Shown: positions 227-4,201 of the stretch, piece after piece
Position numbering within the stretch: position 1 is the stretch's first letter
Layout of the letters: every line of letters starts with the position of its first letter
Assembly (NCBI GenBank): GCA_016928955.1
Contig: JAFGJV010000036.1
Location: 1-52,065 of the forward strand
Direction of reading: 5' to 3'
Length of the DNA stretch: 52,065 nucleotides
Source of the DNA: Spirochaetales bacterium
GTDB taxonomy: Bacteria > Spirochaetota > Spirochaetia > Treponematales > UBA12059
Made by a program: the position numbers and the translations under genes
Notes under the pieces: generated by a model
Database searches by the model: none
The model's input: only the letters and a program-made list of their open reading frames with translations
What the model was told of the DNA's origin: nothing

Positions 227-721
227 TCAAGCGAGCCTTGAGAGCGCCCGCCGTATGTAAAACAGCCTGCACTTGATGGTCCCTTCCGGCTGGCCAAGCG
301 TTTTGGCCAGCTCGGATATGGGACGGCGCTCGCGGTAGAACAGGCGGTACAGCTCGCGGTCAGCCGGGCTCAAACCCTCAAGCATCAGGTCCACGCACAG
401 CCGCCGCCACTCCCCGTCCGGGCGGCCGTGCAGGGCCCGGTCGCTGGCGCAGTCGGCGGGCAGGGAGTCGCACAGCGCGTCCGCCTTCCGCACGCGCGAA
501 CGCGCCAGGTTCCTGGCTATGCCGTGCATCCAGGTGGACAGGCTGGAAGCGCCCCTGAACGAGCGCCTGGACAGCCAGGCCTCGGCCAGGGTGTCCTGGG
601 CAAGCTCCTCGGCCGCCTGCTCGTCGAGCAGCTCCTTCTTGAGCCACGCACACAGGCGGTCCACGCAGGACAGGGCGTCGGCCAGGAAGCGGCCGTCGTC
701 CGGCTCAGGCCCGGCCGGCAA
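227..721 (-). CDS. ECF-family RNA polymerase sigma factor
   Basis: A 164-residue sigma-70 family protein of ECF size. The N-terminal half has the region 2 pattern (EELAQDTLAEAWLSRRSF, then STWMHGIARNLARSRVR), and the C-terminal half has region 4 with a helix-turn-helix around PISELAKTLGQPEGTIKCRL. It would direct RNA polymerase to a dedicated set of promoters. The predicted start is a TTG at 721, which lies 17 bases inside the end of the upstream FliG-like gene, so the two are probably translationally coupled. No zinc-type anti-sigma gene is visible next to it, so the coupled FliG-like protein is the obvious candidate partner; that is inference. The start could be one or more codons further in. 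Confidence 0.85.
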   Translation of the reverse strand: MPAGPEPDDGRFLADALSCVDRLCAWLKKELLDEQAAEELAQDTLAEAWLSRRSFRGASSLSTWMHGIARNLARSRVRKADALCDSLPADCASDRALHGRPDGEWRRLCVDLMLEGLSPADRELYRLFYRERRPISELAKTLGQPEGTIKCRLFYIRRALSRLA

Positions 722-1331
722 GGTCCAGCACCTTCTCCGCGGTCAGGCCGGGCCGGTCGTGGCTGAGAACGCTGTCAAAGCCCTCCAGCGCCAGGTCCAG
801 GCGGCGTTCCTCGTCGGCCAGCATGGCGGCCTTCAGCTTTTCCAGCCTGATACGCGCCTGGAGGGGATCCGTCTGGTCCGCCACCAGGCGCAGGCCCAGG
901 CGGGTAAATGCGTCCGGGCAGGAATCGGACAAGGCCTGGATGTCGTCGTAGCGATCGCCGTCGACCATGCGGGCCAGATGGATAAAATTGGCCGCCTGCT
1001 CAAAGAGGCTAGACGGCCGGCTCAGGTACTCGGGCGTTGGCGGCTGGGCGGAGCCTTCCATGCGGTCAAAACGCTTAAGGAGGCGTTTGAACGTGGATAC
1101 GGCGCCGGCAATGGCCTGCGGGCCCAGGGTGCCCGCGTCCGACTCCATGTCTTGTTGCACGGCCTCGTACGCGCGCTTGGATATGTTCCGGTACAGGGCC
1201 TGGCGGGACTCGTCGTCCAGACCGACCAGGCAGGCAATGAAATCCCGGGTATCCACCTGCCGTATGGCCAGCTGGATGACGATGTTGTTGCGCTGGGTAT
1301 CTTCCAGGAACCGGCCAAGATTTTCTGACAT
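705..1331 (-). CDS. FliG C-terminal-domain-like protein
   Basis: This 208-residue protein opens with a segment closely resembling the C-terminal domain of the flagellar switch protein FliG: IQLAIRQVDTRDFIACL followed by YRNISKRAYEAVQQDM matches the FliG pattern of a VDxRD helix and an NMSKRA helix (roughly residues 17-70). The N and middle FliG domains are absent, and the remaining 110 or so residues are unfamiliar, helical and charged. It is therefore not a normal rotor FliG (about 330-345 residues). A good AAGGAGG site precedes the ATG. It overlaps the ECF sigma gene, suggesting a regulatory or structural partnership. FliG-C homology is seen directly; function is unknown. Confidence 0.65.
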   Translation of the reverse strand: MSENLGRFLEDTQRNNIVIQLAIRQVDTRDFIACLVGLDDESRQALYRNISKRAYEAVQQDMESDAGTLGPQAIAGAVSTFKRLLKRFDRMEGSAQPPTPEYLSRPSSLFEQAANFIHLARMVDGDRYDDIQALSDSCPDAFTRLGLRLVADQTDPLQARIRLEKLKAAMLADEERRLDLALEGFDSVLSHDRPGLTAEKVLDLAGRA

Positions 1332-1380
1332 GTCAACCTCCTTAGGTCTTGTCCCCGGCCGGGACCGACCTCAATCTATT

Positions 1381-1420
1381 GGGAACCCTCTAAAAACCCC
1401 ATGGTTATTAGAGGCTCCCT
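1381..1420 (+). repeat. Composite palindromic repeat, partial copy
   Basis: An imperfect inverted repeat: GGGAACCCTCTAAAAACC pairs with GGTTATTAGAGGCTCCC (1403-1419). It matches the A half of the composite elements near 35.2, 50.1 and 51.9 kb. The bases that follow (CCCTATTGTTTAG) resemble the left arm of the B half and then diverge, so the copy looks truncated. It sits in the 165-base gap between the divergent FliG-like and tldD genes, which otherwise holds little. Confidence 0.7.
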
Positions 1421-1496
1421 ATTGTTTAGTGCCCGTGGCCAGCCGGCAGGTTGAGAAAAAAACGCCGCGCTGGTATCGTTATGCGCCGGAGGCTTC

Positions 1497-2879
1497 ATGA
1501 AACACAGCGGCTTGGCCGATAGCGCCCGTCCCTTTGCCGAGTACACGGAAGTGCGGAGCCAGGAGAACCGGTCGTCACAAATCAGTTTATTGAACGGCGA
1601 CGTGGTGTCCAATGGCTCGGGTACGCAGTCCGGGGTGTCGGCCCGCGTGCACAAAAACGGCGTGTGGGGTTTCGCGTCGTCCCCCGAGAAGGACCGGGCC
1701 GCCCTGCGCTCGTGCGTGGAGCGGGCCACGGCCAATGCCCTGTTCCTGGCTTCCAAGGAGGGGCGCGACGCGGGGCTCCTGCCGTCCAGGCCCGGGACCG
1801 GGGACCACGACCTGGCCTCAGGCTCGCCTGGGCGGTCCAAGTCCGAGCTGGTTGAATTCATGCGCGACCTGGACGCGCACTGCGCCAAGAGCCTGCCGGG
1901 CCTGGCGTCCCGTTCGTTGGGCTTGAGCCGCCTGGACATGGAGAAAACCCTGGCCACGTCGGACGGGGCCGACTCCTGGTCGCTCATACCGCGTACCTTG
2001 ATTTTTGTGTCCCTGACCCTGGCCGCCAGGGGAGAGCCCATAGAGCTGTATGATGTGTTCGGCGGTCTGGGCAGCTTTGAGGACGTTTTTTCCGAGCCAT
2101 CAGCCCTGTACGGCCGCCTAGACCTGCTAGCCGAACGGCTCAGGCAAAAGGCCCGGGGCGTGTACGCCAAACCAGGTACCCATGACGTGATCCTGGACGC
2201 TGACCTGGCCGGCATCCTGGCCCATGAGGCCATAGGCCACACGGTGGAGGCCGACCTGGTGCTGGGCGGGTCTGTGGCGGCCGACTACCTGGGCCAGCCC
2301 GTGGCCAGTCCCCTCATCAGTCTTACGGATTTTGCGAACGACGCCCTAGGACGGCGCTGCCCGGTGCCCGTGTGGGTTGACGACGAGGGAATAGAGGCGC
2401 GGGACGCCGTGATCATAGACCGGGGGGTGCTTTCGTCGTACATGCACAACAAGGAGAGCGCCGCCCACTTCGGCGCCGAGCCCACGGGCAACGCGCGCGC
2501 GTACGGCTTTTCCGACGAGCCGATAATACGCATGCGGAACACGGCCATTCTGCCAGGGCAGAGCAGTCTGGAGGACATGATAGCCGGAGTGGACCGCGGC
2601 TACTACTTCCTGCGCCCGTCCAACGGCCAGGCGGATTCCACCAGCGAGTTCATGTTCGGCGTGACCATGGGCTACGAAATACGGGGCGGCAAGCTCGGCC
2701 CAGCGGTCAGGGACTGCACCGTATCCGGCGTGGCCTTTGACGTGCTCAAGACCGTGAGCGCCGTGTCGCGGGACATGAGCTGGACCGCCGCCGGCATGTG
2801 CGGCAAGAAGCAGTCCATACCGGTGGGCATGGGCGGCCCCGCCATACGCTGCAGGATGAACGTGGGAGGCCGGGCATGA
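1497..2879 (+). CDS. tldD: TldD family metallopeptidase
   Basis: A 460-residue TldD subunit of the TldD/TldE (PmbA) zinc metalloprotease, which in other bacteria trims unfolded or modified peptides in the cytoplasm. The catalytic HExxxH motif is visible as HEAIGH at residues 243-248, in the usual context (ILDADLAGILAHEAIGH), followed by the conserved glycine-rich C-terminal half (ending near GKKQSIPVGMGGPAIR). Length is typical. The stop overlaps the start of the next gene (ATGA), which encodes the partner TldE, so the two subunits are likely made in equal amounts. Upstream lies a palindromic repeat rather than a clear promoter. Confidence 0.95.
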   Translation: MKHSGLADSARPFAEYTEVRSQENRSSQISLLNGDVVSNGSGTQSGVSARVHKNGVWGFASSPEKDRAALRSCVERATANALFLASKEGRDAGLLPSRPGTGDHDLASGSPGRSKSELVEFMRDLDAHCAKSLPGLASRSLGLSRLDMEKTLATSDGADSWSLIPRTLIFVSLTLAARGEPIELYDVFGGLGSFEDVFSEPSALYGRLDLLAERLRQKARGVYAKPGTHDVILDADLAGILAHEAIGHTVEADLVLGGSVAADYLGQPVASPLISLTDFANDALGRRCPVPVWVDDEGIEARDAVIIDRGVLSSYMHNKESAAHFGAEPTGNARAYGFSDEPIIRMRNTAILPGQSSLEDMIAGVDRGYYFLRPSNGQADSTSEFMFGVTMGYEIRGGKLGPAVRDCTVSGVAFDVLKTVSAVSRDMSWTAAGMCGKKQSIPVGMGGPAIRCRMNVGGRA

Positions 2880-4201
2880 CGGATCGCGCAGACGGAATGG
2901 ACGTGGTACGGGCCGCGCTCAAGGAACTGAAGGACGCCGGCGCCGACCAGGCCGTGGCGTCGCTGACCCGGGGCGAGAAGAGCGAACTGAACGTGGACTC
3001 TGGCCGCATGAGCCTGTACCGGACCACGGCCAACGTGTCCATAGGCGTGATGGCCCTGGTCGGTTCGCGCAAGGGCTCGGTGTCCGTCAACGACGCGTCG
3101 CCGGAGGCCATACGCACGGCGGCCAAGGAAGCCGTGGCCACGGCCCGCGCCGGGCGGCCCGATCCGGCCAACGGGATATCCCCGGCCCGTGAGCTGGAGC
3201 GCTTCAGCCGCGGGCAGGACAAGCCGGATTCGGAGGCCATGTACGCTCGTCTGCGCGAATTCGTGGACTACGCCGGCCGAGAGTACCCGGACACCATGCT
3301 GGAGCAGTGCGTGCTGGACTTTGTGGCCGTGGATACGTTTTACGCCAACTCAAACGGCGCCGAATTCGCCGAGCGCGACGGCGCATACGACTTTTCCGCT
3401 ATGTTCACCACCAAGAAGGGCGGCCGCGCGTCCAGCTTCAACAGCTCGGGCGCCAGCCACCTGTCCCTGGACACTCCGCTTGCCCAATGGGGCACCCTGG
3501 ACAGGCTCATGCGCGAGTCGGCGGCCAGCCTGGACGCCCGGCCGGTGGACCGCGCCTTCAAGGGAGATCTCATACTGACGCCCGACTGCCTTGGGGATTT
3601 TCTGTCCTTCCTGGACGACGCGTATCTGGGCGACTACGCGCTGATCACCGGCAACTCGCCCTGGAAAAAGAAACTGGGCCGGCGCGTGCTGTCGCCCCTG
3701 GTTACCGTGCGCTCCGAACCTAACGGGCCGCGCGTCGAGCTGGGCTACGGCTACACGGGAGACGGTTTCCGGGCCGAGAACTGCTCCATCATAGAGGCCG
3801 GCCGCCTGGAAAGCTTCACCCTGGGCCTGTACGGATCCAACAAGACGGGCCTGCCGCGCTGTCCGTCGGGCGGCGGCGCCGTAATCATGGAGCCGGGCGG
3901 GACCCCGTATACCGACATGGTGGCGTCCGTTAAGCGCGGCATCGTCATGTCCCGCTTTTCCGGGGGCTCACCCTCTAAAAACGGGGACTTCTCCGGCGTG
4001 GCCAAGAACTCCTTCCTGGTGGAGGACGGCAGGATAATCCGCCCGCTGGCGGAGACCATGGTGGCCGGCAACCTGGCGCGCCTGTTCAACGACGTGCGGG
4101 CTGTGTCGAAGGAAACCGTGTCCTTTGGCTCAAGCATCCTGCCCTGGGTGCTCTGCGGCGGGGTGCACATATCCGGGGCGGTCAAGGGGAGGGGAGCGTG
4201 A
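2876..4201 (+). CDS. tldE: TldE/PmbA family partner subunit
   Basis: A 441-residue paralogue of TldD without the HExxxH motif, as expected for TldE/PmbA, the non-catalytic half of the heterodimer. Recognisable blocks include the N-terminal repeat-like domain (VASLTRGEKSELNVDSGRMS), the central DYALITGNSPWKKKLGRRVL and the glycine-rich stretch LYGSNKTGLPRCPSGGGAVI. The ATG at 2876 overlaps the tldD stop by four bases; an in-frame ATG further upstream lies inside tldD and would add unrelated residues. The stop overlaps the possible GTG start of the aminotransferase. Confidence 0.93.
   Translation: MTDRADGMDVVRAALKELKDAGADQAVASLTRGEKSELNVDSGRMSLYRTTANVSIGVMALVGSRKGSVSVNDASPEAIRTAAKEAVATARAGRPDPANGISPARELERFSRGQDKPDSEAMYARLREFVDYAGREYPDTMLEQCVLDFVAVDTFYANSNGAEFAERDGAYDFSAMFTTKKGGRASSFNSSGASHLSLDTPLAQWGTLDRLMRESAASLDARPVDRAFKGDLILTPDCLGDFLSFLDDAYLGDYALITGNSPWKKKLGRRVLSPLVTVRSEPNGPRVELGYGYTGDGFRAENCSIIEAGRLESFTLGLYGSNKTGLPRCPSGGGAVIMEPGGTPYTDMVASVKRGIVMSRFSGGSPSKNGDFSGVAKNSFLVEDGRIIRPLAETMVAGNLARLFNDVRAVSKETVSFGSSILPWVLCGGVHISGAVKGRGA

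Follow-up and report, generated by a model that had tools for sequence, protein, structure and literature searches.

The 52,065-base contig analysed here (contig C49, GenBank JAFGJV010000036.1), which in its entirety is the window of this study and belongs to the 2.87 Mb draft genome of a Spirochaetales bacterium (G000, 59 contigs), carries close to one end what on profile evidence is a soluble rotor–stator chimera: both cytoplasmic pieces of the stator protein MotA are joined behind the C-terminal domain of the rotor protein FliG (FliG_C). In the flagellar motor, these two parts ordinarily form opposing faces that push against one another. Directly downstream lies a gene for a sigma factor of the extracytoplasmic function (ECF) type, and the locus is probably a two-gene, self-regulated ECF sigma operon. 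The joint production of the chimera and a sigma factor of its own suggests an undescribed link of motor state to gene expression. Tentatively, we see here a possible spirochaete circuit that reads the rotor–stator interface, in which the chimera would pass back and forth between the motor and its cognate sigma factor, such that stator engagement would set expression and the sigma factor would tune the motor.

Domain composition of the chimera

The original prediction, made from the letters of the window alone, had described a 208-residue FliG-C protein without N-terminal and middle domains, whose gene overlaps an ECF sigma gene by 17 bases; open reading frames, Pfam and TIGR02937 bear this out. 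The FliG likeness, which it had read from two helices (VDTRD and NISKRA), is real, but comprises a whole domain spanning residues 2-93. Within it, residues 18-65 match Pfam FliG_C with 31.3 bits (cut-off 23.3), while a Pfam scan of the window protein returned neither FliG_N nor FliG_M, and FliG_N was matched in only one of eight family members scanned. Structure prediction, by which the proposal was to be checked, yielded a complete FliG_C fold in the AlphaFold2 model (Z 12.6 over 87 residues, root-mean-square deviation 2.1-2.5 Å to 4fhr/1qc7). Profile searches covering 395 genomes from the class and 393 from the phylum supplied full-length relatives. The first half of an eight-member family profile matches the FliG_C structure 1qc7 (E 4.5e-12), and hhalign relates the N-terminal half of the family to a profile of 28 canonical FliG proteins with a probability of 98.5% (E 3e-15). 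The chimera thus shares with FliG the complete C-terminal fold (PF01706), the RNMSxRA motif and an invariant equivalent of R281, but it lacks the N-terminal and middle domains for FliF and FliM binding as well as K264 and most other torque charges, has a MotA domain fused to it, and is encoded alongside a sigma gene.

It is also more than the small FliG-like protein first proposed: its FliG_C half stands, yet residues 109-206 derive from MotA, making it a rotor–stator chimera. Against a profile of 22 MotA proteins from relatives, the C-terminal half of the family scores 99.0% in hhalign (E 3e-18, 101 columns), with about 74 residues of MotA, corresponding to transmembrane (TM) helices TM3-TM4, skipped in the alignment. 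The probability is 91.2% for the window protein together with its closest relative (G002), and 34.5% for the window sequence alone. Crossed controls, pairing the C-terminal half with FliG and the N-terminal half with MotA, gave probabilities of at most 1.7%, by which a chance helical likeness to MotA was rejected. In the eight-member profile, matches to MotA chains of the PDB (8ucs, 6ysf; E ~8e-13) cover the loop (MotA 79-135) and the tail (MotA 217-249), and NCBI models of MotA, MotP and PomA match five of eight chimera members (best 3e-13). Pfam MotA found no match in the family members scanned, because no Pfam model covers the cytoplasmic part of MotA well. Compared with MotA, PomA and MotP, the chimera therefore retains the cytoplasmic loop (about 74-139) followed by the tail (about 213-249), and in nine of ten cases the equivalent of E98, but none of the four TM helices and hence neither ion channel nor membrane anchor. 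The region of TM1-TM2 is replaced by FliG_C, and since loop and tail align with TM3-TM4 skipped, the protein is predicted to be soluble, devoid of any membrane helix.

Modelled from a five-row alignment, the window chimera folds into one helical domain at residues 2-93 and another at 109-206, joined by a linker of low confidence (mean predicted local distance difference test score, pLDDT, 82.9; predicted template modelling score, pTM, 0.45); residues 109-206 modelled alone reach a pLDDT of 88.9 and a pTM of 0.72. A Foldseek search with the whole model gave FliG alone among its meaningful matches, one domain filling the list. For the C-terminal half, the best-ranking structures are MotA/PomA stators (8ucs_C and 8brd_C, Z 5.1; 6ykm_A, Z 4.9). 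A Z as low as about 5 is what one would expect of a chain that takes a different path where the membrane hairpin has been removed, and we take it as supporting only; with structural scores this modest, the MotA assignment rests on the sequence profiles.

In the motor, MotA E98 pairs with FliG R281 for torque, and MotA R90 with FliG D289 for positioning (PMC7564593). These interface charges are invariant in the canonical FliG and MotA proteins of the relatives, with E replacing D288. Among the ten chimeras, the R281 equivalent is present in all and that of E98 in nine (Q in the window protein), whereas K264 is lost in all ten and R90, D288 and D289 vary; of the torque charges K264, R281, D288 and D289, R281 alone is invariant. 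The pattern is suggestive of proteins that would keep the torque-pair surfaces, and not the stator-positioning pair. Conservation of R281 is no proof of interface use, as its motif may be kept for folding.

Recurrence, sigma pairing and upstream motif

Ten chimeras in the order FliG_C-MotA were read, distributed across the phylum and many families, all in open frames; one of them, outside the class, has two FliG_C copies preceding the MotA part (G549). A survey of whether the pairing is conserved, also foreseen in the original prediction, upheld it even in distant relatives: an ECF sigma gene follows the chimera directly in eight of ten genomes (G000, G002, G145, G292, G042, G272, G144 and G549). 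Its start overlaps the chimera stop in five of these pairs (GTGA in G145 and G292, ATGA in G272, 8 bp in G144, 17 bp in G000) and lies within about 15 nt of it in the other three. Because G145 and G292 are 93% identical, this amounts to about seven independent pairings. The sigma gene is found ~34 kb from the chimera, in a separate unit, in G157, and there is none beside the chimera of G425. A scan of contigs with a four-member alignment returned four loci, all from metagenome-assembled genomes of spirochaetes (REEC01000092.1, RECN01000052.1, JANQQY010000648.1, JAGLYY010000560.1). The sigma tree was mostly unresolved. In G002, the sigma gene carries an in-frame TAG near its start (L035, about 2742-2744), either an error or real.

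The window sigma factor has regions 2 and 4, both above the Pfam cut-offs, matches the NCBI model TIGR02937 (sigma70-ECF), and has no C-terminal extension. No other candidate sigma regulator, sensor or anti-sigma factor is encoded within the chimera–sigma pair. The locus resembles ECF sigma/anti-sigma operons of the RpoE-RseA or FecI-FecR type in a sigma factor of regions 2 and 4 only, a single co-translated partner and a shared upstream promoter-like motif, but differs from them in that the partner is soluble, derived from the motor, encoded 5' of the sigma gene and free of any recognised anti-sigma domain.

The upstream regions of the chimeras share the pattern [CA]AACC-N16/17-[CT]ACTAA, so that, at the level of a motif, a common bipartite promoter-like element precedes the operon. 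Six of ten regions contain the strict form and eight contain it once the pattern is relaxed; shuffled sequences average 0.001 and 0.004, respectively (maximum 1 in 5000 shuffles). When no motif is specified in advance, the best 4+5 bipartite word is common to five regions, as compared to two or three in shuffles. In G000, G145 and G292 the strict pattern has exactly one site in the whole genome, always just 5' of the chimera gene. G157 has two, one 5' of the chimera and the other ~34 kb away, directly 5' of the ECF sigma gene; as this second site was absent from the discovery set, it provides independent support. A backwards control pattern matched 57 times over nine genomes, placing scattered further matches of the motif, such as seven in G042, at chance level.

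The same two domains also occur in the opposite order, MotA cytoplasmic domain followed by FliG_C and again without TM helices, in three genomes (G554, G587 and G569; L091:3010-3837(-), L092:340-1146(-) and L103:1489-2286(-)). FliG_C is complete in these proteins, the first two of which share 55% identity, and no sigma gene was seen near them. The existence of two opposite orders argues that the pairing itself matters.

Table 1. Features of the chimera–sigma locus in window coordinates.
Feature	Position	Strand	Basis
Rotor–stator chimera gene, 208 aa, ATG start (FliG_C + MotA cytoplasmic domain)	705..1331	-	Open reading frame, Pfam, profiles, model
FliG_C domain, residues 2-93	1053..1328	-	Pfam 31.3 bits; model Z 12.6; hhalign 98.5% (family)
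Linker, low confidence, residues 94-108	1008..1052	-	pLDDT <50 at residues 94-103
MotA cytoplasmic loop and C-terminal tail without TM helices, residues 109-206	714..1007	-	hhalign, PDB profile matches, structural matches
Overlap of 17 bp between the 3' end of the chimera gene and the 5' end of the sigma gene, translational coupling	705..721	-	Open reading frame coordinates
ECF sigma factor gene, 164 aa, TTG start	227..721	-	Sigma70_r2 44.8 bits, r4_2 29.3 bits; TIGR02937 60.1 bits
Sigma region 2, residues 21-81	479..661	-	Pfam
Sigma region 4, residues 108-160	242..400	-	Pfam
Bipartite promoter-like element CAACC-N17-CACTAA, 94 nt 5' of chimera start	1426..1453	-	Sole whole-genome match; common to most chimera operons
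Ribosome-binding site of chimera gene, AAGGAGG	1337..1343	-	Sequence
Short inverted repeat CCTCTAA...TTAGAGG, 3' of the promoter-like element and 5' of the chimera gene	1387..1414	strand-neutral	Related genome copies

The inverted repeat was considered as an operon-specific element and rejected, for it is an interspersed repeat, of which the window genome holds roughly a dozen related copies. A divergent gene pair for PmbA/TldD-type peptidases (1497-4201(+)) adjoins the operon; as far as seen, the other chimeras have no such neighbour.

Sensor, motor effector or both

The original prediction had envisaged the small protein as a sensor or anti-sigma partner. Given the chimeras without a nearby sigma gene and the near-unique motif, it is equally plausible that the protein acts directly at the motor. 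An explanation that combines both roles would run as follows. The sigma factor would read the CAACC-N16/17-YACTAA motif and drive its own operon; the FliG_C half of the chimera would dock on resident MotA, and its MotA half on resident FliG, altering motor output; and the chimera would also bind the sigma factor. Open motor sites would then draw the chimera off and free the sigma factor, while saturated sites would leave it to restrain sigma, whose activity would both signal how far the rotor–stator interface is occupied and feed back on that occupancy. Further FliG_C proteins are present in every chimera genome checked, with a strong canonical FliG in all but G272, and MotA is present in the window genome. 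We assign this explanation as a whole, that is sigma autoregulation together with docking on the motor and holding of the sigma factor, a probability of about 0.4.

Several points weigh against it. Binding of the chimera to the sigma factor and to the motor are both predictions from sequence, and the window protein lacks both MotA charges (R90 replaced by D, E98 by Q). Neither G425 nor the reversed chimeras have a sigma gene nearby, which indicates that the protein can function in its absence. The upstream regions in which the motif was counted are the ones that had first yielded it, and it marks almost nothing else genome-wide, with no wider regulon seen.

Among the rivals, a one-way clutch or brake is the strongest. 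The sigma factor would respond to some other signal and the chimera would be its main output, occupying FliG and MotA without binding sigma. With the motif near-unique to its operon, no target other than the chimera is evident; in G157, chimera and sigma factor are under the same motif in separate units; and G425 and the reversed proteins have no sigma gene close by. Known brakes such as YcgR bind both MotA and FliG (PMC10140304). The chimera resembles YcgR-type brakes in being soluble and potentially able to contact both proteins, but it is composed of domains of the motor proteins themselves, has no PilZ match and is linked to an ECF sigma factor, and its binding is predicted only. The tight overlaps of stop and start codons, however, suggest a stoichiometric partner of the sigma factor, and the pair encodes no other sensor or anti-sigma factor. 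While the evidence does not separate this rival from the titration circuit, we favour the latter and consider a one-way clutch unlikely.

Less probable still is a purely regulatory chimera, an anti-sigma factor or co-factor that would sense the motor interface but leave rotation unaltered. Operon position, co-translation and the missing C-terminal extension of the sigma factor would suit such a role; homologues that occur free of sigma, the lack of a wider regulon carrying the motif, and a partner gene that precedes sigma do not. We regard it as improbable, and even more so that the domains have left the motor altogether and now provide an all-purpose helical framework for a signal unconnected with it. 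The loss of K264 throughout, the erosion of D288, D289 and R90 and the missing E98 of the window protein would be in line with such repurposing, but R281 and E98 are among the best-kept positions of the family, and it is the partner domains of one and the same interface that have been joined, in two opposite orders. Finally, an artefact or pseudogene of draft assembly, for which one might invoke the draft state of the genomes, the end of the contig 226 bp past the sigma gene and the stop codon in G002, is refuted by the recurrence of the same architecture in open frames in ten genomes of many families.

Related proteins and implications

The reversed chimeras match the Leptospira family NF047717 (LIC10244) over profile positions 8-201 of 252, below the curated cut-off. 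LIC10244 is annotated as hypothetical and PerRA/PerRB upregulated, with a 6.61-fold change in the perRA/perRB double-mutant comparison; its likeness is on the side of the reversed proteins, and it has no known link to a sigma factor.

Other unusual FliG-related architectures were seen along the way. G004 (C170) encodes a membrane protein, TspO-like by eye though without a family match, that ends in a FliG_C-like domain of the chimera family and has no sigma gene beside it (L036:5478-6572(-)). The window genome itself encodes a 605-residue protein in which FliM is fused to the middle and C-terminal domains of FliG (C1, L003:22-1839(+)), similar in length to FliG_C proteins of 618-673 residues in other genomes of the phylum, and a second full-length FliG paralogue of 393 residues outside the flagellar operon (C8, L002:667-1848(+)). 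In G486 (C68), transporter-like membrane segments precede a canonical FliG_C in a gene cut by the contig end (L093:3-710(+)).

A search of 5.39 million open papers, an incomplete coverage of the literature, found neither a FliG–MotA chimera nor a FliG-linked ECF sigma factor. As far as it reached, a soluble protein that unites both torque-generating surfaces is apparently undescribed and an ECF sigma factor with such a partner unprecedented; if docking on the motor holds true, this would be a new kind of system. The two opposite domain orders lend evolutionary support to the notion that these surfaces work as a pair, and the chimera offers a small water-soluble handle on the FliG–MotA interface. 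It may also give a function to the LIC10244 family of Leptospira. For the flagellated spirochaetes that carry it, the link to an ECF sigma factor would provide a concrete route to sensing stator engagement or controlling it, a problem still open in the fields of motility and surface sensing.
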